Made by a program: the position numbers and the translations under genes
Origin: Bdellovibrionota bacterium
Lineage (GTDB): Bacteria > Bdellovibrionota > UBA1018 > CAUJDS01
Length of the DNA stretch: 48,591 nucleotides
Direction: 5' to 3'
Assembly: GCA_963169695.1 (NCBI GenBank)
Contig: CAUJDS010000061.1
Location: 1-48,591 of the forward strand
Shown here: piece after piece, positions 22,116-47,659 of the stretch
How the letters are laid out: each line of letters opens with the position of its first letter
Numbering within the stretch: position 1 is the stretch's first letter
The notes under the pieces: generated by a model
Database searches by the model: none
What the model was told of the DNA's origin: nothing
Seen by the model: only the letters and a program-made list of their open reading frames with translations

Positions 22116-22123
22116 AGGCTACC

Positions 22124-22558
22124 TTAAAGGTGAGAATTGCGTTCCGCCGGTAGGGTGACGAGACCAATCCTAGTTAGTTGAGCTTGCTTCACTTCAGCAA
22201 TGACCTGCGCAATAAATCCATAACTAAGGCTCTGATCCGCTTGAACGAAGACTTGGACGCCTGGCTTGGCTTTTGCGATAGCGGTCAGTTTCTTCCGTAA
22301 TTCACCCTTGGCAAGGCGCGTGTCATTGAGAAGGATCGATCGATCCTTGCGTACCTGAATATGAATCTGGTTTGGCGCTTCGTCTATGGCGCCAGTATTG
22401 GCCTTGGGAAGGTCCAGTTGCACACCCTGCTGCATCATGGGCGCGGTAATCATAAAAATGACTAAGAGTACCAGCATGACATCCACCAATGGCGTAACAT
22501 TGATTTCTGCTAGCGCCATGGGTGTGCCGCGGGATGAAGGACCCTGGTCGAGCTTCAA
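22124..22558 (-). CDS. tolR: TolR/ExbD-family proton-channel subunit
   Basis: 144 residues from a TTG at 22558-22556 that overlaps the TGA of tolQ (TTGA) and has GGAGG seven bases upstream. The next in-frame ATG, 13 codons in, would remove the cytoplasmic tail but keep the membrane helix. The single helix contains the essential aspartate ('INVTPLVDVMLVLLVIFMI'). The periplasmic domain follows the ExbD/TolR pattern ('IHIQVRKDRSILLND...VFVQADQSLSYGFIAQVIAEVKQA'). With TolQ it forms the motor that energises TolA. Confidence 0.93.
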   Translation of the reverse strand: MKLDQGPSSRGTPMALAEINVTPLVDVMLVLLVIFMITAPMMQQGVQLDLPKANTGAIDEAPNQIHIQVRKDRSILLNDTRLAKGELRKKLTAIAKAKPGVQVFVQADQSLSYGFIAQVIAEVKQAQLTRIGLVTLPAERNSHL

Positions 22559-30572: not shown

Positions 30573-31525
30573 AAACGTTCCTTGCTGCTTTTGCAGTCCT
30601 TTGCTTTTTTGCAGGGGATGTTTCGGCTGCACAACTTGCCAAAGTGGAAGCAGCGGAAGTGGAAGTCTATACTGAGCCCTCTGCACAGTCTGCTGTTGTT
30701 GGGAAGCTAAAGAGTGGAGACTTGGTTGCAGCCAGCAACCTGCCTACCCGAGGTTTTTATAAAATTCGAATGCCCCAAGGCGAAGTAGGTTGGGTTTCGG
30801 CGGAGGTGTTGATACTCAATCCACCACAGGAAGAAGGGGCTAACTCCGAGGAAACCCCGGAAGTTTCGCAAGAAATTCAAAAGACACCAAAGCTTTCTGC
30901 TAAGCCAAAAGAATTTGAAACCGCAATGAAAGAGGAGCACTTACATCACTATGTGCTTCGTGGGTTTTTTGATTTGCAATTGCTTAGTTGGAGTGACTTT
31001 GCAACGGTTACTGGATTCAATGCCCCTTCGAGTTTGAAGTCCTTGTCTTTGGAGTTGGAGGCCTATGTTTCTTCCTCCATCTCGTTATTGATGCGATTTG
31101 ACTACCTCTATGCGGGAGCAATTGGCACAACGGATGCCGGAAAAAATTACGAATTCTCCGTGGCGTCCACGCCTTTAATAATTGGAGTGGGATACACGAT
31201 CGGGAGAGATCAAGCCTTTAGCCTAGGAGTTTCTGCAATGGGGGGCTTAGGATTTGGAACAGAGCTGTCGGTTCTGTCTACTTCTGATCTCTCTCCCAAT
31301 GAAACAATCTTGAGCAGTAGCCCACTTGTTTTTGTTGGCAAGGTGCACCTGGCTCATACTTGGAAGAGTGGATTTTGTCTCGCTGCCGAGGCGGGATACC
31401 GCCTTCTCTCTACCTCGCTTCTTGCCCCCTCCACCATTGGAAGTGGATCTTCCATTATTGGTTCGGGCATAGCACTAAACTACAGCGGAATTTTCTTTGG
31501 TGCTGGCCTGGGCATCGCTTTCTAG
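30569..31525 (+). CDS. SH3-domain outer-membrane beta-barrel protein
   Basis: 318 residues, ATG overlapping the previous stop (ATGA). A signal peptide (MKTFLAAFAVLCFFAGDVSA) is followed by a bacterial SH3 domain (about 25-85, 'VEVYTEPSAQSAVVGKLKSGDLV...GEVGWVSAEVL'). After a linker (about 90-125), a C-terminal domain of amphipathic strands ends 'GAGLGIAF', as in an outer-membrane barrel. SH3b domains bind peptidoglycan, so the protein may tie the wall to the outer membrane alongside the M23 enzyme. It is convergent with the GYF-domain gene: the last four bases (CTAG) hold the stop codons of both. Confidence 0.78.
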   Translation: MKTFLAAFAVLCFFAGDVSAAQLAKVEAAEVEVYTEPSAQSAVVGKLKSGDLVAASNLPTRGFYKIRMPQGEVGWVSAEVLILNPPQEEGANSEETPEVSQEIQKTPKLSAKPKEFETAMKEEHLHHYVLRGFFDLQLLSWSDFATVTGFNAPSSLKSLSLELEAYVSSSISLLMRFDYLYAGAIGTTDAGKNYEFSVASTPLIIGVGYTIGRDQAFSLGVSAMGGLGFGTELSVLSTSDLSPNETILSSSPLVFVGKVHLAHTWKSGFCLAAEAGYRLLSTSLLAPSTIGSGSSIIGSGIALNYSGIFFGAGLGIAF

Positions 31526-31980
31526 AGATCCGGATGTTTTTCCCATTGAAAGTGATACACCCAGCAGCCCGAGTCTCTGCGAGCCCTTGTCATGCGAGCC
31601 TGCACATTCATGGAGCGTCCCTTTTTGGTATGAAGGACGTTGAGAGTGACGGGCGTATTTTCTCCGAAGACAGGTTCTACCCCTCGATCCATCGTAGTAA
31701 GTTCGCAGCCCAAATCAGAGGTGTTTCGTAAGAAGCCATTGATCGCCGCTTCATTGTTGAATCCAATCGCTTCCCAATCTACTGAGGAAGCAGCTTTAGG
31801 CTTCGCTGTATGACCAATAGGAGGCGGTGGTGGATCGATGGGCATCCACTCCTTTGCGCCATCTGGCCACATCCAAGTGTATTGAGAAAGTCCGTTGGAG
31901 TGCCGAATCTGTTCGAGTTCCATTTCGGAGTAGGGACCAAAGACTTGGCCATTTCTTGCTAAATAAGTGAGACGGCTCAT
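31522..31980 (-). CDS. GYF-domain protein with possible PilZ-like tail, end of Glt-type cluster
   Basis: 152 residues. Residues 1-55 form a GYF_2-type domain ('YLARNGQVFGPYSEMELEQIR...YTWMWPDGAKEWMPI'), followed by a proline run. Residues about 70-152 are a beta-rich domain with 'VNVQARM'-like strands that could be PilZ-like; this is weak. Myxococcus GltJ contains a GYF domain along with a zinc finger and TonB part, so this could be a reduced, stand-alone equivalent of its cytoplasmic segment. It overlaps the upstream TPR gene by ATGA and is therefore coupled to the gliding cluster. Confidence 0.65.
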   Translation of the reverse strand: MSRLTYLARNGQVFGPYSEMELEQIRHSNGLSQYTWMWPDGAKEWMPIDPPPPPIGHTAKPKAASSVDWEAIGFNNEAAINGFLRNTSDLGCELTTMDRGVEPVFGENTPVTLNVLHTKKGRSMNVQARMTRARRDSGCWVYHFQWEKHPDL

Positions 31981-33926
31981 GGAGTAGGCCCTCCTCTTTT
32001 GACTTCTGATTTGGAAGAGATCGAACGTCCTTTTGAAAGCTCTTGGAGTTTTGTGAGGGCGCGCTCTCGAATGAGCTGACTTTTCACCGCAAGGTACTTT
32101 TCTTTGCTAGAACAGTTGTCGTATAAATCAGCTTTAAAAGACCCTAGCTCGTCTTCCCAAACTTCCTCGCCGCCATAGAGGCCAGAACGAGAGGTCCCCC
32201 AGTTCCATACTTGATCTTCATTATTACCCTGACCCTGACCCTTAAGCTGTTGGGCAACTTGCTCATAGTCTGGATGGGCATTTTGCCAAATGATGTCTTG
32301 GCTAGCGCCGTTGTAGATTTCGACTTCGATGAGCTGATTGTTTTCGGCTATGGAGTCTAAAGTGCGAATCATTCGTAGATTTGCTCTCATCATTTCGCCA
32401 TTAATCTGGTGAAGCAATTGACCTTCGATCTCCGGGGATAGTTTCTGATCAATGGCAAGCAGGCTTACCCAGACAGGCGCCGCTGCGCGAAGGCGTTGGT
32501 AGTGATCGGCATTGTCCTTGAGAGCTTTCAGCCTTGCAAGGATCTGGGCAGAAAGTGTTTCGCCAGGAGCCAACTTGAGTTTAGCTAATTCATATTCCTT
32601 TCGCACTTTTCTTAAAAGCGTCAAAAGCTCGGCCGCTCGCTGTTGCTGTTCTCGATCTCCCGCACGACTCACCTTGGGGCCACGACTCCGTTCATCGAAT
32701 AGCAAATTCATTTCTGACTGTCGGGCAATAAATTGCGAGGATCGAACCCATTCTGTCACAACTTTATCAGGCACCGTTCCCTTCCCTTTCAAATAGGCAA
32801 TAGCGTGGGGATAAAGATTTCTGGATGATGGATCCTTGGCTTTGATCTTTGCTTTCCACTGACTAAGCCAGAGATAGCTATCTTTATAGTTACTTCGAAA
32901 GATATCGATAGCGCGAATAGACTGCGGATACTGGCAAAGCTCGTTTAACGCCATTGCCATCACCATGATAGATTCGGGAGCAAAGGTTCTAAAGAGGGCG
33001 CCCTGTTGCAGGTTCATTGCGGTTCCAATGGCTTCTCCATACTTGTGATCCTTTAGAAAGTTCCAGCTTAGTTCTGAGAGGACTTGTGCCAAATCATTGT
33101 TCTTGCGTTCAACCTGATTTAAATGCTGCACAGACTTCTGGAAGTCTCCGAGTTCAAAATAAATTCGCGCAAGATAAATTCTGGAGAAATCTTCGAGCTT
33201 TACCAATGCGTTTGGCTTCTTAGGATACTTCAGTAGCTTCTCCATACTCATTGCAGCTTCTTTGAGCTTGCCCGCTTTTAAGGACTCCACTGAAGTGGCA
33301 AAATCATAATGTGGCCCGCTACCCTTCAATACCTGAAGAAGTGAGGCATCATAGGTCTGACGGTACAGAGAAGCGGCGCCCTCCCAAATAATTCTCTGAA
33401 TTTCCAATCGGGAGGGGTCGTTTTTCCATTCGCTTCCGCTAAGAGTAGTCTGCAGCTCCTTGACGCGATTTGGATGGCCTTTGGCCCAACCGAGTGATGG
33501 ATACTGACTTTGTAGCGTAGTGAGGCATTGGAGTGCAGCAAGTTGAATTCCGGCGGTTTCCGGGGTGATGGGTTTACTCAACATGGCTGAAAATGCTCGA
33601 TGAGCCATATGTGGCATACTTGCGTAAATCAGTGCTCTCGAAATCCAGTACTCAGAGAAGTAAGTGGTTTCTCCCTCAATTCCTAGCCTTCTTAAGGCTA
33701 GGGCTTCCGAGAATGCCTGTACGGATGATTGCTTAGATTTGAGGAGCAGCTCAAACTCCTGTCGCCAGTCCCTAGGCAATTGCGAGCCAAACCGCCAAGC
33801 TTCGGAACGTGAACAGGCATTTTTGGCAAAAGAAAAGACCGGGGTAGTCCCAGCGCCTTGCGTGGCGAAAGGTAGGAACCAAATGAGGCTGAGTAAGAGG
33901 AGTCGTCGTCTCAACTTATTCTCCAA
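31977..33926 (-). CDS. Exported TPR-repeat protein, GltE-like position in gliding cluster
   Basis: 649 residues from a TTG at 33926-33924 with AAAGGA upstream; no in-frame ATG precedes the signal peptide (ENKLRRRLLLLSLIWFLPFATQGA), and the start overlaps the preceding gene by 11 bases. The body is alpha-helical with TPR-like pairs ('DFSRIYLARIYFELGDFQKSVQHLNQVERKNND', 'YGEAIGTAMNLQQG'). The C-terminal segment 'NWGTSRSGLYGGEEVWEDELGSF' is distinctive. No lipobox cysteine is evident, whereas Myxococcus GltE is a lipoprotein, so GltE is only a positional label; GltC is another TPR possibility. Its place in the cluster suggests a periplasmic scaffold. Confidence 0.65.
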   Translation of the reverse strand: MENKLRRRLLLLSLIWFLPFATQGAGTTPVFSFAKNACSRSEAWRFGSQLPRDWRQEFELLLKSKQSSVQAFSEALALRRLGIEGETTYFSEYWISRALIYASMPHMAHRAFSAMLSKPITPETAGIQLAALQCLTTLQSQYPSLGWAKGHPNRVKELQTTLSGSEWKNDPSRLEIQRIIWEGAASLYRQTYDASLLQVLKGSGPHYDFATSVESLKAGKLKEAAMSMEKLLKYPKKPNALVKLEDFSRIYLARIYFELGDFQKSVQHLNQVERKNNDLAQVLSELSWNFLKDHKYGEAIGTAMNLQQGALFRTFAPESIMVMAMALNELCQYPQSIRAIDIFRSNYKDSYLWLSQWKAKIKAKDPSSRNLYPHAIAYLKGKGTVPDKVVTEWVRSSQFIARQSEMNLLFDERSRGPKVSRAGDREQQQRAAELLTLLRKVRKEYELAKLKLAPGETLSAQILARLKALKDNADHYQRLRAAAPVWVSLLAIDQKLSPEIEGQLLHQINGEMMRANLRMIRTLDSIAENNQLIEVEIYNGASQDIIWQNAHPDYEQVAQQLKGQGQGNNEDQVWNWGTSRSGLYGGEEVWEDELGSFKADLYDNCSSKEKYLAVKSQLIRERALTKLQELSKGRSISSKSEVKRGGPTP

Positions 33927-34677
33927 GTCCTTTACCGATCAAGAAGTCCACCCCAAGAGTAATGACGTGGCTGAAGGCATTTCGTGGCCCTTTGAGCGTA
34001 CCCAGTTGACTCGTAATTTGTTGTTCGTAGAAACTCTCTCGGCGGTACATCAGGCGATAGTCGAGTCGCAAAGACATGACCTGGGTGATATAAAATCGCT
34101 GGCCGATCATTATCGACGGAGCAATGTATTTGCCAGATTCAGTAAAATCAAGGCCAAGTCCGGCGCCAACGTGAAGGTCGAAATAGATAATCTGCTTTCC
34201 AAGAAGACTAAGCTTTCCGTAGAGTAGGCTCCAATTGTTCTCAAGGCCAAGGTAGCCATTTGGCTTATTGGTATTTATTTTTCCGTCTTTTTCGGCCTTA
34301 TAGCGCTCATAAGCGAGAGAATCGGCTACAAAGTTATACATTCCAGTAAGGTGGAGCGAGTAGGTTTCTGAAAAGTGATAACCAAAGCTAGATCCTAAGG
34401 TCTGTACGCTAAGAAAAGGATCGACTGCTACGATTCCACCAAATACGCCAAATTGAAATTTATTGGATTTGGAGAATTTTCTATTTTGGACGACCCCAAC
34501 CTCGGCTGACTTCCCTTTGGTCCAGTATCGGTCTTTGATGTTATTGACATCAACTTTTTCGCCACCCGAGGTTTTCTCTTCCTGGGCAGGAGTGGGTTGG
34601 GATTCTTCAGCTAGTGCAATCTGCCAATGCGTGAGGAAAGCCATCAGAAAGAGGCTGCGCTTTATTGTTCGTTTCAT
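33916..34677 (-). CDS. Outer-membrane beta-barrel protein, GltH/CglE-like
   Basis: 253 residues with a signal peptide (MKRTIKRSLFLMAFLTHWQIALA). A charged linker (about 24-60) precedes the barrel, which starts 'VGVVQNRKFSKSNKFQFGVFGG...SSFGYHFSETYSLHLTG'. This pattern matches the outer-membrane barrel family found mainly in Myxococcota and relatives, which I remember as TIGR04565. Myxococcus gliding clusters encode such barrels (GltA, GltB, GltH/CglE) that form the outer-membrane platform. It starts 5 bases after the GltG-like gene ends. Confidence 0.7.
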   Translation of the reverse strand: MKRTIKRSLFLMAFLTHWQIALAEESQPTPAQEEKTSGGEKVDVNNIKDRYWTKGKSAEVGVVQNRKFSKSNKFQFGVFGGIVAVDPFLSVQTLGSSFGYHFSETYSLHLTGMYNFVADSLAYERYKAEKDGKINTNKPNGYLGLENNWSLLYGKLSLLGKQIIYFDLHVGAGLGLDFTESGKYIAPSIMIGQRFYITQVMSLRLDYRLMYRRESFYEQQITSQLGTLKGPRNAFSHVITLGVDFLIGKGLGE

Positions 34678-34682: not shown

Positions 34683-36239
34683 CTATCTCCCAAGTGACTT
34701 AAAGATGAATGGATAGGTGACGCCCACGGTGACACCACCCTTCGGATGTGGAAACTGCCATCGCTTGAGCCGCCGTATAAGGCAGTCGTCAAGCCTTGGA
34801 TCTGGAACAGTTGAACTTTTTACGGCTGCAGTTCGAACGAGACCAGCTGGTCCGATTGCAAAGTCGACAATGAGTTTTCCTTCGATATCAGGTGTGTGAA
34901 TCATGGCGGATTCATAGCAATAGCGAACTTCGTTGAGGTGAGCATGAATGACTTTGCCGACCTCGTCTTTGGTAAGTCCTTCTTCAACTTGGGATCCACC
35001 AGAATCCAGGGAAACAAAAGACGAACCTTGTCCCGCTACGGCGGCAACAGATCCTTTGCCATAGCCAACTTGCTTACCTTTGGCATCTCCGCCCAAAGAA
35101 GAAACTTTAATCTGCCTAGAAGAAGTAAGGTGTTTGTCGGAAACATTGCCTACAGTAGCCGACGAATTAAAAACTTTCTTCGAGGCGCTTCGATCACCGC
35201 CGACAAGGTCTGATTGGGCGAGTAGGGTGGTGAGTCCACCCTTGAGAAGGCCTTGAACAGCATTCTGTACGGCTTGTGCACGGAAAGCTTGGACCACTTC
35301 TGTTTGCGCGGCCTTGGTTGGGGCAGGTGTTCCTCCGCCTTCTTTAATGCCATCTGACTTGGGCGCTTCCTGCGGTGTCATGACGATTTTGGCATATTGT
35401 TCTGGTATGAGTTCATTGGGATCTTCTTGCGGCTTTGGCATGAAGTAAGAAATAGCTAAGAACAGCGTAAGGAGCGCGCCAGCGATCTGAACGGACCGCT
35501 TTAAGTTCGAGAGGTCCTCGGAAGATTCTCTGGAAACGCGTACATCTATGCTGGGAATTTTTTTGGCATTAGCAGTGCCAAAGTGCCAACTATGTGCATT
35601 CCATTGCAAAGTGGATTCAAGAATTTCGCTTTTTCCAAGGGTTGATTCGTTAGAACCCATTGCCGCGCCTTCCGAATCTTTGTTTCCAAGCGTAAGGCCG
35701 TCGCTGAGTGGGTGAATTCTGTACTGAGATCCCTGAACCGTTATTTCAAAAAGGGTCTTGCCTGAGGCTGTACCAACATACTTCTTTTGTATTCGAGTTA
35801 CGTCATGAACCCAGTTGCCAATGCATTGATAGATTCGTAGTGGGTCAGATTCAGAAGATTCCTGGAGAAATGGGGCTTCAATCGTTTGAGCGGTTGTGAC
35901 TCGAATGCTATAGTCTCGACAGAAATCTTTAGGGCCAGGCAGAGTCTGGTCTGAGGCATTGCGGAGGTCCTTTTCTGTCATTTCAAGGAAAGCATCTTCG
36001 ACACGCTCGTTGACGGGGCTTCCTACCCAGCGAATTCGAATGCCAGCATCTGTCGTCCGTTCAAGAAACCAAAGGACGGGATAGCCAAGTGCTAGTGGGC
36101 GATCTGGATTCCATATGATTGTTTGTGTCGTAGAATCTTTTGAGGAAATTTTTCGAGTTAGGGCGACGACGAACCGCTTCGGCTGACGCTGCTTTTTCTT
36201 TGTGCCTGTGCTGCGTGCCGCTGTGGTGTTTAGACTCAT
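34683..36239 (-). CDS. AgmX/PglI-type TonB-like transducer, GltG-like
   Basis: 518 residues: a cytoplasmic N-terminal domain (about 20-255), one membrane helix (about 257-277, 'AGALLTLFLAISYF'), a glycine/serine-rich periplasmic linker, and a C-terminal domain (about 425-515) 'EEGLTKDEVGKVIHAHLN...VRYCYESA' and 'VVDFAIGPAGLV'-type strands. The last domain matches the AgmX/PglI C-terminal family related to TonB, with conserved cysteines. In Myxococcus, GltG and GltJ have this architecture and carry the AglRQS motor's force through the periplasm to the outer-membrane complex. It overlaps the small upstream gene by ATGA. Confidence 0.78.
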   Translation of the reverse strand: MSLNTTAARSTGTKKKQRQPKRFVVALTRKISSKDSTTQTIIWNPDRPLALGYPVLWFLERTTDAGIRIRWVGSPVNERVEDAFLEMTEKDLRNASDQTLPGPKDFCRDYSIRVTTAQTIEAPFLQESSESDPLRIYQCIGNWVHDVTRIQKKYVGTASGKTLFEITVQGSQYRIHPLSDGLTLGNKDSEGAAMGSNESTLGKSEILESTLQWNAHSWHFGTANAKKIPSIDVRVSRESSEDLSNLKRSVQIAGALLTLFLAISYFMPKPQEDPNELIPEQYAKIVMTPQEAPKSDGIKEGGGTPAPTKAAQTEVVQAFRAQAVQNAVQGLLKGGLTTLLAQSDLVGGDRSASKKVFNSSATVGNVSDKHLTSSRQIKVSSLGGDAKGKQVGYGKGSVAAVAGQGSSFVSLDSGGSQVEEGLTKDEVGKVIHAHLNEVRYCYESAMIHTPDIEGKLIVDFAIGPAGLVRTAAVKSSTVPDPRLDDCLIRRLKRWQFPHPKGGVTVGVTYPFIFKSLGR

Positions 36240-37116: not shown

Positions 37117-38076
37117 ATGTCACACGTATTTTGCACGCTCCATGATCAAGCTTTGAAGCTCTCTAGGCAATACCTTGCTTGCGAGAAAGCACTTTTAGAA
37201 ATTCTTGTGCAGATTGAGGCTAAGAAAATTTATCTTCAACAAGGCTATGCAAGCCTAACCGAGTATTCTCAGAAGGCACTTGGGCTATCTCGAGATGTCA
37301 GCTGGAACCTTGTTACCATTGTTCATAAAACCAAAGCCGTACCAGAGCTTAAGCACGCGGTGCAAATGGGGGTACTTCCTCTGAGTAAAGCTAGGCAGAT
37401 CGCCCCCCATTTGACGAAAGAAAATTCTCAGAAGTTCATCGCCTTGGCTCAGGCCATGCCAAGAGAGAAGCTTCAAGAAGCGCTCGCCAAAGAATGCCCC
37501 AAGATTCCAAGCGTGGAAGAGCGTGCCCGGGTAATCAACGCGACACAGACTGAGCTTTCTTTGTGTTTGCCAAAAGACGTCATGGAGAAACTTAGGCGAG
37601 CCCAAGATCGAGTCTCTGAGTCGCAAAAGAAGTGGGTTGGACTAGCAGAGACCTTAGAGCAGGTCATCGAATTCTACCTTCAGCACAAAGATCCAAAAGA
37701 AAAAGCCAAGCGCCATGAAGTTCGAAAAAACAAAGCAGCTCTGAAGGCAATTCAACCCCGTCGTACAGTACGAGAATCTGACGCGGCTGCTAGAAATTCT
37801 GAATTTAATCTTATGCCTATCAATAAGCCTATAGCCAAGATTCAAGCAAAAGGCCGAGTCCCCATTCCTGCGGGTATCAAACACGAGGTGACTATCAAGA
37901 ATGCACATCAGTGCACCTATCGAGACTCTAGGACCCAGCTTCGATGTATGAAAGAAAGGTTCTTACACATCCATCACAAGCTTCCGGTAGCAATGGGTGG
38001 AACTAATGCGTTAGAGAATCTTACTTTGCTTTGCAGCGCCCATCATCGCTTAGAGCATTATCGAGGAGGCGGGTAG
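37117..38076 (+). CDS. HNH endonuclease domain protein
   Basis: 319 residues from the ATG at 37117 with AAAGGAA upstream. The helical N-terminal region ('CEKALLEILVQIEAKKIYLQQGYASLTEYSQKALGLS') is of the DUF222-like kind seen in multicopy HNH proteins. The C-terminal nuclease (about 260-319) has 'HQCTY...LRC', 'HIHHKLPVAMGG', 'NLTLLCSAHHRLEH', that is the His-His, Asn and His residues of the HNH beta-beta-alpha-metal fold plus zinc-binding cysteines. The gene is intact. It runs against the flanking gliding genes and lies between long inverted repeats, so it is probably cargo or agent of a mobile element. Its cleavage site is unknown. Confidence 0.85.
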   Translation: MSHVFCTLHDQALKLSRQYLACEKALLEILVQIEAKKIYLQQGYASLTEYSQKALGLSRDVSWNLVTIVHKTKAVPELKHAVQMGVLPLSKARQIAPHLTKENSQKFIALAQAMPREKLQEALAKECPKIPSVEERARVINATQTELSLCLPKDVMEKLRRAQDRVSESQKKWVGLAETLEQVIEFYLQHKDPKEKAKRHEVRKNKAALKAIQPRRTVRESDAAARNSEFNLMPINKPIAKIQAKGRVPIPAGIKHEVTIKNAHQCTYRDSRTQLRCMKERFLHIHHKLPVAMGGTNALENLTLLCSAHHRLEHYRGGG

Positions 38077-38291: not shown

Positions 38292-41200
38292 CTATTTTTT
38301 TGTTTCGGTACTTTTTGGCGTTGGGTCTTGGAGTTGTTGAATGCGACGCAATTCAGTGCGGGCCCAATAGGATTCGTCATTGTTATCTGACTTTTGAGCC
38401 ATCAAGAGAAGGTCCATGCGATTGCGATCGGATACCTTTGCCTGGGTCCAAGCGATTCCGTAACTGAGTAGAAATGCTTCTCGTTCATTTGAGATAGCGG
38501 TCTTCATGAGATGGCTAGAACTTTCATCTTCGAGCTTCTTTATCCAATCCAACGTAGCTTCCTTTGAAAATGTTTTGATGTAGTGGCTCAGTGCTATGAC
38601 CGTCGCCTGATTTCGATAGTCATCACCCAGTTGACTTCGCACATCCAATAGTTCCTTAAGTGCTTCTGCCCTTGCGCCGGCATAAGCCAAAGTTACGGCT
38701 CGCATTAGAGCTAGCCCGGATGATGTCGTCAAGTTTCGATCCTTGAGTTCTTGGAGGAAATACGAAACCTGTTGCCACTTTTGTTCCTTGAGGGCGAGGC
38801 TCCATCGGGATTTGAGATAGAGTTCAGTTACTTCTCCTTGAAGCTTCATTTCAAGATTGATTGTTTCCCATAGTCCTTTGGGGTCCAGCCTTCTCAGGGT
38901 TTTGTGCGAAAACCGGATTGGCTCAATACTCTTAACTCCTCCAGTGATCTGACTCGCTTGAGACGGATTGTCTGCAAAAAATAGATTGGCGATCTTCACA
39001 AAATCGGAATCTTCAATGGAATTCGTAGAAGCGATTTCGAATGACTTGCTTCGAAGTTCCTGTCCCTTTTCCTCAAAAGGCAGCACCAACTTTTGAATGG
39101 TCTCTTGATACGACGCTGCTTCATTTTCAGGGAGGCCCTTGGGTGGGGCTAATTGAGAAAGTGATTTAGAAAAATCGATGTACAATTGAGCAATCTCAAG
39201 CATAACTCTCGCTCGAATTCTTGCCCAAGGCAGTTTCATGGAACTCTTTGCGGACTCTTCAATTTCTTTGATCTGGGCAACTCGATGAGTGATTGATTTC
39301 TCACTTGATTTTAGCGGAGTGAGTCGATCAATGTCCTGCCTGTTCAGTTCAAAGCTTTTTGGAATTGAGATGGACACTTTAGGTAGTAGTGCCAGTTGCA
39401 AGTCAGGTTCTAAATCATTCCATCTTCCAGCTACTTGCTTTGATAGTAAGAGCCTATCTGGATACCGCAGAGCTTCCTGTTGTTCTAGGGCAGCGGCTGC
39501 CCAAATTGGGCGATTATCTCTAGGGGCATTAAGAGCGAGCTTCATCAATTCTTCGGGTTTTCGGTCGCGTGTTTGCAGGGAATTGAGTGCTAAATAGCGA
39601 TTACAAAAAACTTCTAGCTCTTTATTGCAAATTTCAGGGCTCTCCAAAGACGTGATCAATTGCTTCCTGTCTCCGGAGATCCATCCGAGGTGCACAATTT
39701 TCTTTCTTAAATCAGTGAGCTCCGATTCAGACATCTTTACTTTGTCTTTAGGTAGGCGGGTGTAGGCGAGGTAATCTGATGCGGCATCAGAAAATCGATA
39801 TAGCGCCTCGCCAATTTTGCCAGAAGATAGGTAACTTGCCGGTAGGTGCTCTGATTTTGGAAAAGTCTTGATCAGTTTCTGGTAAAAATTTCCTGAGCTA
39901 ACTAGGTCCTTCGTACTCTCCGATGCTCTCGCTGCAAGATAAAGGGCGTCTTGAATTCTGGGGCTGCCAGGATAGCGAGTTTCGAAGGATCCAAATGCCG
40001 TAACGACCTCGAGGTATTTTTTATCCCTAAAGTCCGTCTCCATCAATTTGTAGCTTGAGTCAGCAGCAACCGAAAAAATCTTTGTTTTGAACTGAGGGTC
40101 GTTCCAATTCTGAACCTTGAGGTACTCATGCGCAAGGTCACGCGCATCTTTCCAGCGTGCATTCTTGACATAGGTGTCTAGCACTAAACTGCCAGCTGGC
40201 ACGGCAAAGAGTGAAGTGGGATATGCTCTTGAGATATGAAGAAGTCGTTGAAGCGAAGCTTCGAGGTAGTTCTTATAGTAGAGTGAGCGCGCGCTCTCGA
40301 AAAGAAAGCTATCAAATTTCTTAAAATCCTTCGAAAAGTGAGATTCGTGCCAATCAATCCAGGCAAGCCATTCCGTAAGTAGTGGATCCATGGAGTTTTT
40401 TGAATTTTCGTCTAAGTTTTTAACTTCGAGTTTCTTGGGTGAGAAGTCTTTCGTCTTGAAGACTTCATAGCGGCTTGCAATTGCCTTTAGGCTCGAATCC
40501 TCCAATTGGACGCCATCCTTCACGGCCCAGGCGTTGGTCCACTTGTTGACAATCCAGCGATAGTGAAAGGTGGATTCTTCAAAGCGCCCAATCGCAAATA
40601 AAGTTTCAGCTAAGTTGTAATGTACTGCGGGAACTCGAGGGTCCGTTTCCTTTACAATTTTGGTAAAGGTGTCGTAGAGATTGGCTAATGGCTCGCTCCA
40701 AACTTTTAACGCATTGCCTTTGTCTTTGTTTTTGAGAATAGAAGTTCTGAGCTCATTGGCCTTATCGAGTATGACATTTTGGGAGCGTTGATAGGCATCA
40801 AATTTTGAGAGGTCAGTTTTATTGGTTTCGTAAAGCGCAATGATGCTTTGAAGTGGTTGAGGCATTTCGGGATAGAGCTTCTGATTCCAGAGGTGTTCAA
40901 AGGCAATGAGCGCAACCTCCATAGATTCGGGTCTTCGAGGTTCTCCCTTAGCGACGACATTCTGCCATTCAAGAAGTGCCTCGGTCTTTCCATTGGTTCT
41001 TAGGACTTTGGCGAATCGCTCGAGCATTTTCCCGAAAGTTATCCCTGATTCCAGGCTCTTAAAGTAGGGAAGAGCTTTGGAGACAGCATAAGAGCCAGGT
41101 TCTCTTGCAAAGCCTTCATAGTAGAATACGGCCGTATCCAATAAGCTAGTATCTCGAATGGCGAGGTCGGATTGGGAGTACCCGGTTTCGACTTCAAATT

Positions 41201-41960
41201 TGGAATTGTAATAGATAATGTGTGATTCGAGATAGGAAAGGGCTTTTGAGATCTCGCCCAAGTTGTAATAGGACCATGCCAGCTTATAGAGTGCATAAGG
41301 ATACTGCGGATGCTCAGGCTTTTTTTCCACCTGCAGAAGGTATCCAATGGCTTCTTGATGATGGTTGTCTTCAATCGCAAATTGAGCCAAAGCCATGTAG
41401 GCAAGAGGCACTTCAGGGGCCTCAGGAAACTTCTGTGTGAAGGCCAGGTAGTCTGATTTCGCATCCTTCTTTTGCTCTAGTTCTTCGCGAGCCTTGGCTT
41501 GCATAAAGTAGGCGCGCCCACTATCCGTATGGTCTGGATAACCTCGGATGAGTTGTTGTGTCGTTGAGATGATGGATTTTAGAGTGGTATTATAATCTTT
41601 GAGATCGAGGGGGCCGTTGTTGTAGTGAGCCTTAGCGTGCGCAATGCGGAATTGAATCGCGCCAGCTTGCTGATGGACATCGGCAAGTCGAAGCAGAAGT
41701 TCTGGAATGCGCCGTGTGCCTTGGTATTTCTTGATGAGTTCATGGATCTTTTTTTCGGCTATTTTTTGGGTGTCGAGGGCTACCTTGTCTACTTGGCGAT
41801 CATAGTTTTCGCGACTATTGGGATTTTTCACTTTTGAAGAACCGGGTCCTGCGACAATATCGGTAGCTTTCTTTGGTGGTTTTTTTGGTGCGGCGACGGA
41901 TAGGGCACCCGTGAGGCTCAAACCGATCAATAGTCCAAAAGCAAGAAACCTTTTTTGCAT
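38292..41960 (-). CDS. Large periplasmic TPR protein, GltD-like position
   Basis: 1222 residues with a signal peptide (MQKRFLAFGLLIGLSLTGALSVAA) and a Lys/Pro-rich start to the mature protein. Helical TPR-type pairs run through the length, for example 'LADVHQQAGAIQFRIAHA', 'AYFMQAKAREELEQKKDAKSDYLAFTQKFP' and 'YALYKLAWSYYNLGEISKALSYLE'. It directly follows the AglRQS-type motor genes (15 bases after the last). Large TPR proteins (GltD/AgmU, GltE, GltI/AgmK) are parts of the Myxococcus gliding complex; the signal peptide favours a periplasmic GltD-like role. It is the last gene of the first gliding operon, and the HNH cassette follows. Confidence 0.75.
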   Translation of the reverse strand: MQKRFLAFGLLIGLSLTGALSVAAPKKPPKKATDIVAGPGSSKVKNPNSRENYDRQVDKVALDTQKIAEKKIHELIKKYQGTRRIPELLLRLADVHQQAGAIQFRIAHAKAHYNNGPLDLKDYNTTLKSIISTTQQLIRGYPDHTDSGRAYFMQAKAREELEQKKDAKSDYLAFTQKFPEAPEVPLAYMALAQFAIEDNHHQEAIGYLLQVEKKPEHPQYPYALYKLAWSYYNLGEISKALSYLESHIIYYNSKFEVETGYSQSDLAIRDTSLLDTAVFYYEGFAREPGSYAVSKALPYFKSLESGITFGKMLERFAKVLRTNGKTEALLEWQNVVAKGEPRRPESMEVALIAFEHLWNQKLYPEMPQPLQSIIALYETNKTDLSKFDAYQRSQNVILDKANELRTSILKNKDKGNALKVWSEPLANLYDTFTKIVKETDPRVPAVHYNLAETLFAIGRFEESTFHYRWIVNKWTNAWAVKDGVQLEDSSLKAIASRYEVFKTKDFSPKKLEVKNLDENSKNSMDPLLTEWLAWIDWHESHFSKDFKKFDSFLFESARSLYYKNYLEASLQRLLHISRAYPTSLFAVPAGSLVLDTYVKNARWKDARDLAHEYLKVQNWNDPQFKTKIFSVAADSSYKLMETDFRDKKYLEVVTAFGSFETRYPGSPRIQDALYLAARASESTKDLVSSGNFYQKLIKTFPKSEHLPASYLSSGKIGEALYRFSDAASDYLAYTRLPKDKVKMSESELTDLRKKIVHLGWISGDRKQLITSLESPEICNKELEVFCNRYLALNSLQTRDRKPEELMKLALNAPRDNRPIWAAAALEQQEALRYPDRLLLSKQVAGRWNDLEPDLQLALLPKVSISIPKSFELNRQDIDRLTPLKSSEKSITHRVAQIKEIEESAKSSMKLPWARIRARVMLEIAQLYIDFSKSLSQLAPPKGLPENEAASYQETIQKLVLPFEEKGQELRSKSFEIASTNSIEDSDFVKIANLFFADNPSQASQITGGVKSIEPIRFSHKTLRRLDPKGLWETINLEMKLQGEVTELYLKSRWSLALKEQKWQQVSYFLQELKDRNLTTSSGLALMRAVTLAYAGARAEALKELLDVRSQLGDDYRNQATVIALSHYIKTFSKEATLDWIKKLEDESSSHLMKTAISNEREAFLLSYGIAWTQAKVSDRNRMDLLLMAQKSDNNDESYWARTELRRIQQLQDPTPKSTETKK

Positions 41961-41975: not shown

Positions 41976-42482
41976 TTACTGATTTTGTACGACAGCAAGC
42001 TTGAAGTCAGTGTAACCATTCACTGCTGCTGATGCGAGCACTGTCTTGATGGTAGAATAGGGTGCCTTTTGATCAGCGACAATGAGAATTTTCGGATCGA
42101 TCTTCACCTGGGAATTTGCCTGAGCAATGGTCATTTGCCTTTTTCTCTCTTTGGCTAGCGCTTGAGAGAGTGATTTGGATGTCTTATTGCCATCCATGTC
42201 GCCCATAGCAAATTGATAATCTTTGAGGTCCAAAACGGGTTGGTTTTCGATAAGGACTGCGGTGGATGATATCTCTACTTTGAGTGCATCCGTGGGGACT
42301 TGATTAGAGGAGAAAACCTCTGGAAGCACGAGTCCAGCGGAAGGAGAGAGCGTCACAGCAGACGTTGTGAAGCTTTTAAGTAGAAAAACCAGAAGAACCG
42401 TAAAAATATCCGCCATGGCCGTAATGTTGAGCGACATGTCTTGGGCTTGGGCTGCTTTTTTGTGAAAGAGCTTGCGACTCAT
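41976..42482 (-). CDS. aglS: TolR/ExbD-like gliding motor subunit (AglS-type)
   Basis: 168 residues, ATG one base after the preceding stop. A single helix (about 20-40, 'ITAMADIFTVLLVFLLKSF') carries the conserved membrane aspartate D25. The periplasmic domain is of TolR/ExbD type ('VKIDPKILIVADQKAPYSTIKTVLASAAVNGYTDFKLAVV'). A TolQ homologue followed by two TolR homologues is the signature order of Myxococcus aglR-aglQ-aglS, the proton-driven motor of focal-adhesion gliding. The label depends on this order and on the adjacent Glt-like genes. Confidence 0.75.
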   Translation of the reverse strand: MSRKLFHKKAAQAQDMSLNITAMADIFTVLLVFLLKSFTTSAVTLSPSAGLVLPEVFSSNQVPTDALKVEISSTAVLIENQPVLDLKDYQFAMGDMDGNKTSKSLSQALAKERKRQMTIAQANSQVKIDPKILIVADQKAPYSTIKTVLASAAVNGYTDFKLAVVQNQ

Positions 42483-42483
42483 G

Positions 42484-42936
42484 TCAAAATCCCCCTAGGA
42501 GAACGCCAGGGAAGATTTTTCGGAGGGCTTCCATGGTTTTTACGACATCACGGTATTCTACTTGCGCATCCGCCGACAATGTCACGGCGCCGACAGTCGG
42601 AAAGTCCTTTCGGTAAGCTTGAAGACTCTGACTCATTCGGTCATAACCCCAGTTTTCCCCGACTGCAGAAATGGAGATGGTCTTATTCACTTTTCCAGTG
42701 ACGCGAATCTCCAGGTTATGTTTGGATTGGAGGTGAATTCCCAGTGTAATGGGTGGCTTGGCAGTTGACGTTGAGCTTGCCCCTCCAGCGGATATTCCGG
42801 CATCTAGGAATCCAATAGAAAGGAAGGCCGCTGAAGCAAGCATGAACGAGATGAGAACAACCAGCGCGTCAATGATCGGCGCTAGGTTGAGATCAACATC
42901 TTGGTCATTGCCGCCTGGTAGTTGCCCGACGCTCAT
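42484..42936 (-). CDS. aglQ: TolR/ExbD-like gliding motor subunit (AglQ-type)
   Basis: 150 residues, ATG overlapping the stop of the TolQ-like gene (ATGA). The helix 'LNLAPIIDALVVLISFMLASAAFL' (about 16-39) has the membrane aspartate D23. The corresponding residue of Myxococcus AglQ (reported as D28) is needed for gliding. The periplasmic domain follows the ExbD pattern ('VTLSADAQVEYRDVVKTMEALRKIFPGVLLGGF'). Together with the neighbouring subunits it should form a proton channel powering gliding. Confidence 0.75.
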   Translation of the reverse strand: MSVGQLPGGNDQDVDLNLAPIIDALVVLISFMLASAAFLSIGFLDAGISAGGASSTSTAKPPITLGIHLQSKHNLEIRVTGKVNKTISISAVGENWGYDRMSQSLQAYRKDFPTVGAVTLSADAQVEYRDVVKTMEALRKIFPGVLLGGF

Positions 42937-43628
42937 GCTGATTTCCTCAGCGGAACGATATTGTCAGAGCTGCTAGACTCTGCGCCTTGACGGCCCGTAA
43001 CATAATACCGCTGTTTGAGGATCTCAAGTACGCGAACAGAGCTATGCTCGAGTTCTGCAACCAGCCGTGAGGCGCGATTCACCAAGAAACTAAAAGCAAT
43101 CATGGATGGAATCGCAACAGCGAGTCCCATCATCGTAGCGTTCATGGCAGTTGCAATACCTGCAGCAAGAAGTGCAGACTTCTGCTGTGGATCAGCGTGT
43201 CCAACGGCATCGAAGGACTGGATCAATCCCACAATCGTTCCAAATAGGCCCAAAAGAGTTGCTACGTTTGCAATGGTTGCAAGGAAACTGGTTCTCTTCT
43301 GGATCATCTGGGTAGCTAATCCTACTTCGTATTCAATACCATGTTCAACCATGCTCTCAGGGAGGTGTGCTCGAATCAGCGCACCTTTGATAACTCTGGC
43401 AAGGGGTTTGGACTTTTCATACTCATCGCAAAAAGCAACGGCCTGAGAAGTCTGTCCCGATAAGACCATTTCGGTAATTTTGTCTAAAAACGCTCGTGGG
43501 TTTCCGATCGGATAGGTCACAAACAGCGCCTTTCCTCTCTCCAAAACGATTGCAAGCGCGAAGGCACCCACAATCAAAATAGGCAGCGCATGCGAGAAGT
43601 GATCCCTGATAAAGTCTAAGATTCCCAT
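42933..43628 (-). CDS. aglR: TolQ/MotA-like gliding motor subunit (AglR-type)
   Basis: 231 residues with the MotA/TolQ/ExbB fold: a first helix about 12-30, then 'FLATIANVATLLGLFGTIVGLIQSF' and 'GIATAMNATMMGLAVAIPSMIAFSFL', which hold the channel motifs. A second TolQ homologue in the window, separate from tolQ at 22555-23250. It lies 25 bases after the CglB-like gene and overlaps the AglQ-type gene by 4 bases. Function by position is the stator of an Agl-type gliding motor; an alternative is an ExbB of unknown cargo. Confidence 0.78.
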   Translation of the reverse strand: MGILDFIRDHFSHALPILIVGAFALAIVLERGKALFVTYPIGNPRAFLDKITEMVLSGQTSQAVAFCDEYEKSKPLARVIKGALIRAHLPESMVEHGIEYEVGLATQMIQKRTSFLATIANVATLLGLFGTIVGLIQSFDAVGHADPQQKSALLAAGIATAMNATMMGLAVAIPSMIAFSFLVNRASRLVAELEHSSVRVLEILKQRYYVTGRQGAESSSSDNIVPLRKSA

Positions 43629-43653: not shown

Positions 43654-45327
43654 TTATGACTTTGGTTGATAGTTGATAATGATTTGGTCGCCGACTTGGT
43701 AGCCAAGGATCCAATTCAAATTGGTAATTCTTAAAGTTGTGCCAGATACCGTGAAGTCACTGCTTGGAATAGTTGTACTGCTACTGTCAGAATGACGAAT
43801 GCGTACGATCATGTCTTCCGCGCCAGTTGGTGGTCTGGTCAATTGAAATGTACCTGCGCGTTCAATAATTTTGGTTCCAATAGAGTCTAAGACGCTAGCG
43901 TAATTGGACTGGCCCAAATCAGCTACCGAGGATCCGTTTCCAACTTGATTGACTAGGCTTGCAATGCGATCAGGGTAGTCTACTGAGTGCGATAACGTGA
44001 TTCCTGCCGTCTGTTCTATAGCAATTCGAGCACTGTGGAGAGATTGGATTGAGGCTCCAGTAGTTGGAATGATGCCGTATACAAAATACGAATCAGTGCT
44101 TGCAGATCCGTCTAGCGTATTGAAGAAAGTGTCGAGGCGGGATTTGAATGAGCTAACAGACACAAGTTTTGTAGAATCTGGGCAGACGCTAGGTGTGAAA
44201 GTATAGCTATCAACTGTTTTGGATGGGCAGGATAGGCCTGCAGCTCCATAGGTACAGTTGGTGGCGTTGCTGCAGCAATAATTTGTCGTAACGGATGCAC
44301 CGTTGAGGGTGACCAGGCTTGCTTGATCGCATGCATAATCAGAGTTAGGACTAAATGTGCCAGAAGGACTTGATGGAAGGCTCATGGATTGGTCATTTTC
44401 ATCGGTGACAAAAATAATAGCTCGTATGGAACCCGCCCTGAAAAGCGCAGTGGAAGTTCCTTCATTGTCAGTGAGTAACTGATCGATGGATGAGAAATGT
44501 CGTTCGGAGCCGTGTCCCACTGCCCCTGTTGTGAGATTGAGGAGTGCGCGATCAATCAGCGCCGATATCCAAGCCTCGTCACCAGGTGTTCCTGATGGAG
44601 GACGCGTTTCTAAAATGGCTTTTCCAGAATGGACGGAGTCATTCTGAATCGTGTTTACGCATTGGGTGAGTGAAGCTTCGCCGGCTCCTGTGTTTGGAGC
44701 CAGGCAATGAGAGTTGCCTGTGTTGTGAGACTGATCGTCTCGAATACGACACTGTGTTGCACCATTAAGGAAGGCTGGGAGCCCTTCAAAGCAGAGTCCG
44801 GTGATAGGACCATCGTGTGTTCCTGTAAGGAGCCTTGCATAGTTGGAGCCCCAGGATGGAACTAATTCCTTAAATTTAATTCCGCTATCAAAGCGAGCAG
44901 TCGTTGTATTGAGTAGCGTGGTATTCCAGCTAGGATTCTGCCAGGTTCCTAGTCTAGATAAAATATAGGGTGACTGGTAACTCACACTTCCAGGAACAAC
45001 TCGATTCAAGTATCCATTAAAGGTGGAATTGGCTAGGTAGGCGTCACTTGGAATAACAGCCATGCGAATGTCCATGCTAGGTTTCATGTACTTGCGAGCG
45101 AAGGAATCAAAACCGGTGCGTAGGGTTGCTTGATAGGCATCCATGCTAGCGGAATTGTCTACGACCCAAAGAAGGTCAACCTTCACATTGATGTCTTGAA
45201 GTGCTTGAAAAGTCTCTTCACGCTGAGCAAAACGAAAGCTGTCTTGTAGCTGTTCTGTGCATGCAGACATAGTCATTAATGCCGCTGTTGAAACATAGGT
45301 CAAAATTTTATTTGTCTTCAGTTTCAT
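43654..45327 (-). CDS. VWA-domain surface lipoprotein with MIDAS, CglB-like adhesin
   Basis: 557 residues. The signal peptide ends in a lipobox-like 'TMSAC' with Cys23. A von Willebrand A domain follows, with the MIDAS motif DNSAS at 57-61 in 'VDLLWVVDNSASM' and a second acidic site in 'IIFVTDENDQS'. Many cysteines in the middle region suggest disulfides. In Myxococcus, CglB is a surface-exposed, Cys-rich VWA lipoprotein that acts as the adhesin of the gliding complex. Here a protein of the same design is encoded directly before the motor genes. The C-terminal beta region ('RITNLNWILGYQVGDQIIINYQP') resembles a beta-sandwich. Homology to CglB is inferred from architecture and context, not from alignment. 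Confidence 0.75.
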   Translation of the reverse strand: MKLKTNKILTYVSTAALMTMSACTEQLQDSFRFAQREETFQALQDINVKVDLLWVVDNSASMDAYQATLRTGFDSFARKYMKPSMDIRMAVIPSDAYLANSTFNGYLNRVVPGSVSYQSPYILSRLGTWQNPSWNTTLLNTTTARFDSGIKFKELVPSWGSNYARLLTGTHDGPITGLCFEGLPAFLNGATQCRIRDDQSHNTGNSHCLAPNTGAGEASLTQCVNTIQNDSVHSGKAILETRPPSGTPGDEAWISALIDRALLNLTTGAVGHGSERHFSSIDQLLTDNEGTSTALFRAGSIRAIIFVTDENDQSMSLPSSPSGTFSPNSDYACDQASLVTLNGASVTTNYCCSNATNCTYGAAGLSCPSKTVDSYTFTPSVCPDSTKLVSVSSFKSRLDTFFNTLDGSASTDSYFVYGIIPTTGASIQSLHSARIAIEQTAGITLSHSVDYPDRIASLVNQVGNGSSVADLGQSNYASVLDSIGTKIIERAGTFQLTRPPTGAEDMIVRIRHSDSSSTTIPSSDFTVSGTTLRITNLNWILGYQVGDQIIINYQPKS

Positions 45328-45377: not shown

Positions 45378-46208
45378 TTAAAAAGATTGGTTACTCGTCT
45401 TGGCATGGCCGGATTCGGCTTTCATGACGCAAGCGCCAGCACGTTCTTTGACAAGCCATGCGCGCGATATAGCGCCCTTTTGATTCAAGGCTTTTGTCAG
45501 TTCATTTTGAAAAGCGTTTAGTTCTTTCTCTAGTGTCTTTTCGTGAGCGGATGGGCCCTTCTTCTTGGCTTGTTTGTCCCAGTTGGTGTATTCCGCGCCG
45601 CCGAGATTGGCCTGTCCCGCATCTCCCAGAGCAGCCATGAATTCATCCACGGGAACTTTGCAGGTTTCTTGGCAGAGAACTTTGCCCACGCAGTAGTGTG
45701 CGGAAATTTCAGCATTCGGACCGGCGGATCCGTTCACTATGACGTCAAGCTTGGCAGGATTTTCGTGATTCTTTGCCGTTTCAAATTTTACGGGAGTGCC
45801 ATTGACTCTAACGCAAAGAGACTGGGGTTGGATTCCGGCCTCCTGGAGCGTAATGATGTTCTGCAGGCGAGCATATTCTTCCAATTTCTTAGGGCTACGA
45901 TCTTTGTCTCGCTTATAGGTCATTTTGTAACAAGCAGGTTTCAGAGGTGTGCTGCTCATCTCGGCAGACTTTGAAGTAGCGGTGTCAGAATTTTTTTCAT
46001 GAGCTTCCAAAGAGGGAGTCTTCGAAGAAACAGAGTCCTGCTTGTCACTTTGACTCTGAGCTTCTTCGCTGTTTGTGACAGAACGGGTTTCCTCTTGTGA
46101 AGATTGAGAAGTGGCATCGCCTCCAGAGGGCTGACGCAGGTGGTACCAGGTTGCCATTCCCATTAGGCAACCCAAGCCAAGGACTAGGTTTCGAATCGAG
46201 TTTTTCAT
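45378..46208 (-). CDS. Membrane-anchored protein of unknown function, first gene of gliding operon
   Basis: 276 residues with an N-terminal helix (about 6-23, 'RNLVLGLGCLMGMATWY'). A Ser/Thr/Glu-rich linker (about 27-90) follows, then a domain with several cysteines ('ACYKM', 'SLCVRVNG', 'YCVGKVLCQETCKVP') and a charged helical stretch. I do not recognise the family. It is preceded by a strong AT-rich promoter shared with the second gliding operon and followed 50 bases later by the CglB-like gene, so a role in the same machine is likely by context only. Confidence 0.65.
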   Translation of the reverse strand: MKNSIRNLVLGLGCLMGMATWYHLRQPSGGDATSQSSQEETRSVTNSEEAQSQSDKQDSVSSKTPSLEAHEKNSDTATSKSAEMSSTPLKPACYKMTYKRDKDRSPKKLEEYARLQNIITLQEAGIQPQSLCVRVNGTPVKFETAKNHENPAKLDVIVNGSAGPNAEISAHYCVGKVLCQETCKVPVDEFMAALGDAGQANLGGAEYTNWDKQAKKKGPSAHEKTLEKELNAFQNELTKALNQKGAISRAWLVKERAGACVMKAESGHAKTSNQSF

Positions 46209-46336: not shown

Positions 46337-47659
46337 TTATTTCTTTTCTGGGAGGAGGGCTTCGAAATCCTTGGCGAGGTTGGGCCAAAGTTCCTTACCC
46401 TTGTCGAGTAAGGACGAGGCCGCATCCTTTAAATTGGTTTGAAGGTAAACTTTGGCTAGGCCCTTGTAGAGGTCCGGATCGGAGATTCCTTGGGCCAATA
46501 TTTTTCTGCCGCGGTCGACACTCATTGCGGGGGGACTAATGGCGGAATGCACCATAAACTCGCAGACCAGAAAATCGGCCTCGCTTTGATTGGCAGATGG
46601 AAAACGTTTGAGGTACTTCTCCGCTTCTGCTGGAAGTTCAGCTTGCAATAAGGTTGTGATAATTTCTCGAAGGATTTTAGTTCTCCCACCCGCTGTTATG
46701 CCCGCCTTTTCGAAAAGTTCAAGGGCTCGCGCATTGTGACTATTCTTCAAGTAATACTTTCCGCAAACGACTAGCGCCGCGCAAACGTATTTGACCAACA
46801 TTTCGTCGCGCTGATCAATTCCCGTAAATGCTTGGTAGTAGCGTTCAATGTCTTCATAGGCGCCCGTCATTATAGCTAGTCGAAGTACGCTGGCGAGGCG
46901 TTGCGGATTGGCAGGAAAGTAGCGAGATATTTTTTTCACGACATCATAGGCTTTTGCGTACTTCTTTTGGCCCATGAGCATTTCAAAAAGACCAACCATG
47001 CACTTGTAGTGAATCTTGTTGTAACTTAGTCCTTGTTGATAATCCCCCTCGGCTAAATCCAAAGCCTTTTTAATTTCTTCAGCTTGGCCCAAGTAAAAGA
47101 AAGCAAGAGCTGGCTTTTTGTCTAAGGTGCGAGCTTTTTTGAATAGAGCAATGGCATCTTCAGGCTTTCCCTCTTCAAAAAGCTTTGCTTTACCTTCGTT
47201 GATGGTCTTCATGTACTCGCTGGGTTGAATTTTTGCCAGGACAGCTTTCATGATAGATTGTCGCAAAACCTCGATCGTGTAAGGTTTGAGAAGGAAAGTG
47301 TCTACATCTTCTTCTGCTGCTTGTGCGACAGCACTTTGAGAGCTGTTCCCTGTAACCAAAACAAAAAGGCTGTTTTTTGAATCAGGGTTTTCTTTGCGCT
47401 GCTGTTGAAGAAGGTCAAGTCCTCTGCCTCCACCAATTTCAAAGTCACAAATGACGATATTGGGTTTGTGTTTAGCAATCGCATCGCGTGCGACTTCGTA
47501 GGTGTTTGCAAGAGTCATGAACTGAGTTTGGGCACCCATATTGGACATGGCCCTTGCAAGTCCCGCTCGGGAAGCGTTGCTAGCATCCGCAACAACAATT
47601 TTTTTATCTCTAATGTAGGTATCGAAGAGCTTTTCGTTGTTGGATTTCGGCTTAGCCAT
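46337..47659 (-). CDS. Response regulator with TPR domain
   Basis: 440 residues. The receiver domain (about 18-140) has the phospho-acceptor Asp72 in 'IVICDFEIGG', a Thr in 'LVTGNS', and the Lys in 'TFLLKPYT', so it looks functional. The rest is helical TPR repeats ('GKPEDAIALFKKARTLDKKPALAFFYLGQAEEIK', 'NSHNARALELFEKAG'). There is no DNA-binding or enzymatic output domain, so output is by protein contact. It starts 3 bases after the preceding small gene. The gliding operon starts just downstream with its own promoter, so a role for this regulator in motility is possible but not shown. Confidence 0.85.
   Translation of the reverse strand: MAKPKSNNEKLFDTYIRDKKIVVADASNASRAGLARAMSNMGAQTQFMTLANTYEVARDAIAKHKPNIVICDFEIGGGRGLDLLQQQRKENPDSKNSLFVLVTGNSSQSAVAQAAEEDVDTFLLKPYTIEVLRQSIMKAVLAKIQPSEYMKTINEGKAKLFEEGKPEDAIALFKKARTLDKKPALAFFYLGQAEEIKKALDLAEGDYQQGLSYNKIHYKCMVGLFEMLMGQKKYAKAYDVVKKISRYFPANPQRLASVLRLAIMTGAYEDIERYYQAFTGIDQRDEMLVKYVCAALVVCGKYYLKNSHNARALELFEKAGITAGGRTKILREIITTLLQAELPAEAEKYLKRFPSANQSEADFLVCEFMVHSAISPPAMSVDRGRKILAQGISDPDLYKGLAKVYLQTNLKDAASSLLDKGKELWPNLAKDFEALLPEKK

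Follow-up and report, generated by a model that had tools for sequence, protein, structure and literature searches.

A VWA/MIDAS lipoprotein encoded with the motor of an agl-glt gliding cluster is a candidate surface adhesin in Bdellovibrionota

The window analysed here is a stretch of 48,591 nucleotides from a member of an order of Bdellovibrionota composed of uncultured metagenome-assembled genomes (MAGs); the earlier note called the organism a predator relative, a description drawn from taxonomy only. The window carries an agl-glt gene cluster in which a gene for a lipoprotein with a VWA domain and a MIDAS directly precedes the motor genes. The features referred to below are as follows.

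46337-47659, minus strand: response regulator and TPR protein, upstream of the operon and a conserved neighbour in some relatives
45378-46208, minus strand: companion envelope protein, 276 aa
43654-45327, minus strand: VWA/MIDAS lipoprotein, 557 aa, with a predicted outer-membrane location (sequence, alignment, predicted fold)
45205-45327, minus strand: its signal peptide, lipobox (LMTMSAC-T) and the short leader that precedes the first beta strand (sequence, alignment)
45145-45159, minus strand: its MIDAS loop 1, DNSAS, aa 57-61 (sequence, alignment)
within ORF 43654-45327, minus strand: MIDAS residues D57/S59/S61, E275 and D309; cysteine-bearing insert regions at roughly aa 100-228 and 320-385; C-terminal beta domain at aa 493-556
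42933-43628, minus strand: AglR-type (MotA/TolQ/ExbB) motor subunit, 231 aa, 25 nt downstream of the VWA gene
42484-42936, minus strand: ExbD/TolR-type subunit 1 (AglQ/S-like), overlapping aglR by 4 nt
41976-42482, minus strand: ExbD/TolR-type subunit 2 (AglQ/S-like)
38292-41960, minus strand: large periplasmic TPR protein, 1222 aa, GltD-like in position and size
37117-38076, plus strand: HNH-endonuclease gene, lying between the TPR and gltG genes
34683-36239, minus strand: GltG-like TonB-type protein (NF033760, E 4e-35; AgmX/PglI C-terminal domain)
33916-34677, minus strand: outer-membrane beta-barrel (TIGR04565, myxobacteria and relatives)
31977-33926, minus strand: GltC-like TPR protein (NF033756, E 1.4e-9)
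31522-31980, minus strand: GYF_2 domain protein with a weak PilZ match, of the Bd1482 type

The VWA gene is an intact ORF with an ATG start. Its product begins with a type II signal ending in LMTMSAC23-T24, in which the threonine is the invariant +2 residue, and continues into the MIDAS stretch LLWVVD57-N-S59-A-S61. Residues C23, T24, D57, S59, S61, E275, D309, E310, D312 and Q313 are identical in all 18 aligned orthologs. Sorting of lipoproteins to the outer membrane by the Lol system is generally read from the +2 residue; the absence of Asp at this position suggests that the protein is sorted to the outer membrane. Ten of its 11 cysteines, i.e., all but that of the lipobox, are found within aa 179-382. 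The lipobox cysteine, the DNSAS motif and the position of the gene 25 nt before an AglR-type gene, on which the earlier note had built its proposal of a candidate surface adhesin, are all present in the sequence.

Pfam recognised no VWA domain in the ORF or in its orthologs, sequence searches of the PDB with the protein returned nothing useful, and NCBIfam gave weak matches only (Bdellovibrio MIDAS adhesin model, E 7.6e-7; CglD, E 1e-3). The fold is nevertheless supported by an AlphaFold2 model built from an 18-sequence alignment (mean pLDDT 80, pTM 0.83), which matches integrin I domains with Z about 14 over 185-195 residues (VIA-align against the integrin alpha2 I domain: Z 14.2, 192 residues). 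By Foldseek, integrin beta headpieces and two pilus adhesins, SpaC and RrgA, rank as the best PDB matches, the pilus adhesins being shared-fold matches only. Because the A domains of TFIIH and vWF score nearly as high as the integrin I domain, these matches establish a VWA fold and not a function. The earlier note had held that its proposal would fall with a fold lacking a VWA domain, or with a branch tied to metal chelatases or pilus-tip proteins: the predicted fold contains the domain, and neither Pfam, for any ortholog, nor NCBIfam yielded a match to chelatase or pilus-tip families. In the model, E275 lies between helices 251-265 and 277-288 and D309 just past strand 301-307; judging from the strand order, these residues appear to occupy the expected MIDAS loops 2 and 3. 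Since the second insert stretch (about aa 320-385) follows directly upon loop 3, it probably decorates the binding face. A small beta domain is built from both the N and C termini.

The stop codon of the VWA gene is separated by exactly 25 nt from the ATG of the AglR-type gene (43628-42933), and the gap holds AGGGGGAA, a Shine-Dalgarno-like site. Scans for promoters and terminators gave signals that were not above those of shuffled sequences. Upstream, the 276-aa companion combines an N-terminal transmembrane or lipobox anchor, a low-complexity linker and a Cys-rich C-terminal beta domain, of which aa 91-190 are modelled with a pLDDT of about 92 and have no convincing fold match in the PDB (E above 0.01). 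The companion gene precedes the VWA gene in nearly all relatives; two paralogous clusters (L050, L051) also carry it, with the VWA gene at the other end. The HNH gene leaves a gap of ~2 kb in the operon, which is small in relatives. The same genome has copies at 82-87% identity, two on contig C12 and another on C63, and therefore looks to harbour a mobile family of HNH elements that often land beside agl genes. Proteins with GYF_2 and PilZ domains are frequent in these clusters, the PilZ match being strong in Bd1482 (L097:10127-10747) and weak in the window; from their domains, such proteins could possibly link the motor to cyclic-dinucleotide signals. The minus strand of the window also holds an ordinary Tol-Pal-type cluster (TolQ, TolR, TolA/TonB-like, TolB-like) at 20058-23250, some 8-10 kb away from the side of the gliding cluster that has the GYF and gltC genes.

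A survey of 58 genomes from the class placed orthologs of the VWA protein, 43-55% identical to it, in many genera, and the gene order in relatives is companion-VWA-aglR-exbD-exbD-TPR. Across the window's order the median VWA-aglR gap is about 20 nt. The gap measures 12-40 nt in 18 of the 20 order relatives measured, with a 4-nt overlap in one; this count is to be read as “nearly all,” since the VWA gene of one locus (L052) has a frame break and yielded no gap that could be used, while that of another (L041) lacks a start codon by the simple rule and can be counted with the 20 only when its missing gap assignment is disregarded. Gaps kept in 18 of 20 relatives at only 43-55% protein identity place the adjacency of the two genes far beyond chance. 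Among named genomes, full-length orthologs were found only in uncultured MAGs called Bdellovibrionales, Oligoflexia and similar, and matches elsewhere covered the VWA core only. MAG contigs titled Lysobacteraceae and Klebsiella pneumoniae (L031, L059) carry gliding-cluster or VWA genes of the Bdellovibrionota type, and these taxon names are probably wrong. Two full-length paralogs lie away from glt genes, one (L048) next to a HAMP-guanylate cyclase gene and the other (L049) next to a transglutaminase-elicitor-like gene.

By profile alignment, the window protein is a full-length homolog of Bd1483, the MIDAS lipoprotein of the gliding cluster Bd1473-1483 of Bdellovibrio bacteriovorus HD100 (hhalign probability 99.1, E 1.6e-18, 343 columns), the alignment running from the lipobox through the VWA-MIDAS core to the C-terminal beta domain. 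The four aglR loci of HD100 (G160) agree with the four published clusters. The one at 1.39-1.41 Mb encodes a VWA lipoprotein (353 aa), a GYF/PilZ protein, AglR, two ExbD proteins, a TPR protein, GltG and a barrel, an order that agrees with the published tags Bd1483 (MIDAS lipoprotein) and Bd1481 (aglR); the same order occurs in G163, G172, G190, G224 and G273 and in a relative from the window's class (G057). Both proteins have a lipobox directly before the VWA/MIDAS domain, both genes lie upstream of aglR-exbD-exbD-TPR-gltG-barrel in the same order, and both motors belong to the same AglR clade. A tree of 49 AglR proteins places every one of the 20 VWA-linked AglRs in a single clade of 27 members (support 90/92), separate from Myxococcus AglR and from the other three HD100 clusters (93/93). 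The machine of the window is therefore of the Bd1473 type and not of the Bd0828 type, Bd0828-0838 being the cluster nearest to the Myxococcus gliding motor (Luciano 2011). The VWA gene is not indispensable, since some machines of the same clade have none (L198, L199, L110, L100, L099 and contig C11 of the window's own genome). The two loci also differ. The window protein is 204 aa longer than Bd1483, with two cysteine-bearing inserts beside the MIDAS; each of its ten cysteines other than that of the lipobox falls within or at the border of a stretch that Bd1483 lacks, and Bd1483 has two such cysteines, outside the inserts. Moreover, the GYF/PilZ gene ends the cluster in the window, whereas it stands between the VWA gene and aglR in the Bd1483 cluster, and the companion gene precedes the VWA gene in the window, unlike in the Bd1483 cluster.

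A VWA lipoprotein gene is found in three of the four gliding clusters of HD100. Besides Bd1483, the clusters Bd0411-0421 and Bd2368-2377 end in VWA/MIDAS lipoprotein genes (L208:4216-5487 and L209:4064-5086). The first encodes 423 aa and has a 4-nt overlap with gltC; the second encodes 340 aa and is separated from gltC by 2 nt. From gene order, with which published signal-peptide marks fit, these genes are probably Bd0411 and Bd2368. Their products resemble the window protein in having a lipobox and a VWA domain with a DNSxS MIDAS and in being encoded inside agl-glt operons; they differ from it in being smaller, in the distal position of their genes after gltC and in belonging to other cluster types. 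Equivalents of the gltC-linked genes are present in G163, G172, G190 and G266. No VWA gene was found around Bd0828-0838, the most Myxococcus-like cluster of the four. A rough Poisson estimate puts the chance of finding VWA genes in three of the four clusters at ~0.002 if HD100 has 16 VWA genes, 16 being the number of first-look candidates only. In the window's own genome (G000), contig C7 ends in a VWA lipoprotein gene beside a gltC-like gene and contig C80 starts with a cluster broken off after the barrel gene; together they are probably one split cluster, which makes a second VWA-bearing machine in this genome likely. Judged by gene content, several distinct agl-glt machines of Bdellovibrionota thus carry a VWA lipoprotein gene of their own. 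A rule by which every agl-glt cluster has one was rejected, as there is none in the Bd0828 type or in some members of the Bd1473 clade. A phylogeny of all VWA lipoproteins did not resolve if the gliding-linked ones have a common origin.

The earlier note had compared the protein with CglB, the integrin-like adhesin of Myxococcus gliding, and this comparison stands for the design and fails for the kinship. In a Myxococcus-type genome (G496), a VWA lipoprotein of 416 aa that has the motif DTSGS and 17 cysteines in its reading frame (3,564,823-3,566,070) is taken as CglB from its length, its position relative to an nfs-like cluster and its clear Myxococcia orthologs. As in CglB, an outer-membrane lipoprotein, the alignment and the model of the window protein combine a lipoprotein signal with a VWA domain, a MIDAS and many cysteines, and by analogy the window protein may work like CglB as a plausible surface adhesin. 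The cysteines of the window protein lie in inserts that cannot be aligned to CglB. Its motif, however, is DNSAS and not DTSGS, and the two families show no detectable relation in sequence: hhalign of the window family against 12 CglB sequences gave a probability of 5.7% over 61 C-terminal columns only, and a CglB query found no match in the window's genome or in HD100. Orthology with CglB was ruled out by this profile comparison and this search. The genomic setting differs too. The presumed cglB gene of G496 stands alone among neighbours unrelated to gliding and far from aglRQS (8,556,312-8,554,354), which has a divergent unrelated gene upstream; in the window, the VWA gene directly precedes aglR, in an operon whose motor belongs to a different AglR clade from that of Myxococcus gliding. 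The co-operonic arrangement that the earlier note had regarded as foreign to Myxococcus is thus borne out both by the gaps conserved in the order and by the isolation of the presumed cglB gene. Another Myxococcus protein, CglD, matches the window family in its VWA core (probability 96%, E 4e-9), but is about 1,130 aa long and has long extra regions. Bd0875, the tested MIDAS adhesin of Bdellovibrio, shares the lipobox, the MIDAS and the beta domain formed from both termini; membership in its family (NF052240) was ruled out by a score of 28.6 bits against a curated cut-off of 700 and by a profile match of 54 columns only. The Bd0875 gene is part of no gliding cluster, the Bd0828-0838 motor genes being about 38 kb away.

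Published data on the Bdellovibrio counterparts are available at several levels. Mutants with transposon insertions in aglR Bd1481 and in Bd1483 were partially and almost equally impaired in biofilm predation: they reduced biofilm by 36.2% and 38.4%, respectively, both significantly less than wild type (PMC2277423). The Bd1483 gene is 1062 bp long and its transposon sits at +1022, close to the 3′ end (PMC2277423); with aglR located downstream, a polar effect on the motor is a serious alternative cause of this phenotype. According to the MIDAS-adhesin study (PMC11003981), a clean bd1483 deletion leaves prey invasion unaffected, Bd1483 is detected in the surface secretome, and Bd0875, whose MIDAS Asp is needed for normal prey entry, is on the predator surface; the string “glid” appears in that paper just three times, and the passages covered do not treat Bd1483 as a member of a gliding cluster. 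By proteomics, Bd0411-0421 are high in early bdelloplasts, whereas Bd2368-2377 are high at prey exit, Bd2368 (log2FC 2.83) together with Bd2369-2377 (PMC12546842). A 2026 review lists the Bdellovibrio gliding adhesin as unidentified, and no publication stating that these clusters encode MIDAS adhesins of their own was found among the open-access papers searched.

Taken with the operon, the fold and the kinship to Bd1483, the secretome, Bd0875, biofilm and proteome data make it reasonably probable that the window protein is a machine-specific, operon-encoded outer-membrane adhesin, the adhesive “foot” of a Bd1473-type agl-glt machine. Counting against this reading are the normal prey invasion of the clean bd1483 deletant, the possible polarity of the Bd1483 insertion, the VWA-less machines of the same AglR clade, the two paralogs remote from glt genes, the lack of a VWA gene in the cluster nearest to the Myxococcus motor and the poor resolution of the deep VWA tree. 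One operon would supply the lipoprotein along with the AglR-ExbD-ExbD proton motor and the Glt-type envelope proteins, and the lipoprotein would most likely form the outward-facing, adhesive end of the machine. The motor would pull the Glt complex along while the MIDAS protein, which might behave as a catch bond, takes hold of substrate, slime or the prey surface, and the two cysteine-bearing inserts beside the MIDAS would probably set the binding target.

A rather unlikely alternative is that the lipoprotein faces the periplasm as a structural or force-transmitting part, e.g., as a connector between the outer membrane and GltC or the barrel, with its MIDAS binding a protein of the machine. 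Sequence does not reveal which way a lipoprotein faces, the translational coupling of VWA genes and gltC in two HD100 clusters would suit such a part, and VWA proteins have been proposed as motor-coupled force transducers at other TolQR loci. However, the proteins proposed there have an inner-membrane tether while the window protein is a lipoprotein, its variable cysteine-bearing inserts by the MIDAS better suit an outside ligand, and the surface reports for Bd1483 and Bd0875 from the study cited above speak for an outward location.

It is more doubtful still that the protein stands apart from the machine, simply sharing the motor's expression while binding prey or matrix at the cell surface. 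Both the action of the related Bd0875 in prey entry from outside the gliding clusters and the existence of VWA-less clusters agree with such an arrangement, but the link with agl-glt genes recurs in three cluster types at different operon positions, which is unexpected under simple co-expression. Finally, that the cluster is an Nfs- or Ton-like envelope machine for transport or polymer handling, with the VWA protein as cargo receptor or assembly factor, is very improbable: the same motor family serves Nfs spore-coat assembly in Myxococcus (PMC3858216), the window AglR lies outside the branch of Myxococcus AglR and TonB-like functions were left open (Lambert 2010), yet no polymer-synthesis genes were recognised around the cluster, and insertions in Bd1473-1483 impair thick-biofilm predation, as expected for surface movement.

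Returning to the adhesive foot, the gene-order rule joins three papers, i.e., the biofilm screen (aglR, Bd1483), the MIDAS-adhesin study (bd1483 deletion) and the stage-resolved proteome, and yields three named candidates for the Bdellovibrio gliding adhesin in a genetically tractable strain, Bd1483, Bd0411 and Bd2368, two of which are tied to machines of known expression stage. A more tentative extension is that parallel agl-glt machines might each have a MIDAS foot of their own that determines where it can take hold, Bd0411 working inside prey, Bd2368 at exit and Bd1483 in biofilms or on surfaces, with an enlarged, cysteine-braced form in the window's order, and that adhesin and motor evolve as a unit, unlike in Myxococcus, where CglB is not linked to the motor. 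If true, adhesin and motor would together be a module that can be exchanged, paralleling in bacteria the gliding of apicomplexans, and the window protein would be a candidate for the foot by which relatives of Bdellovibrio hold surfaces or prey.
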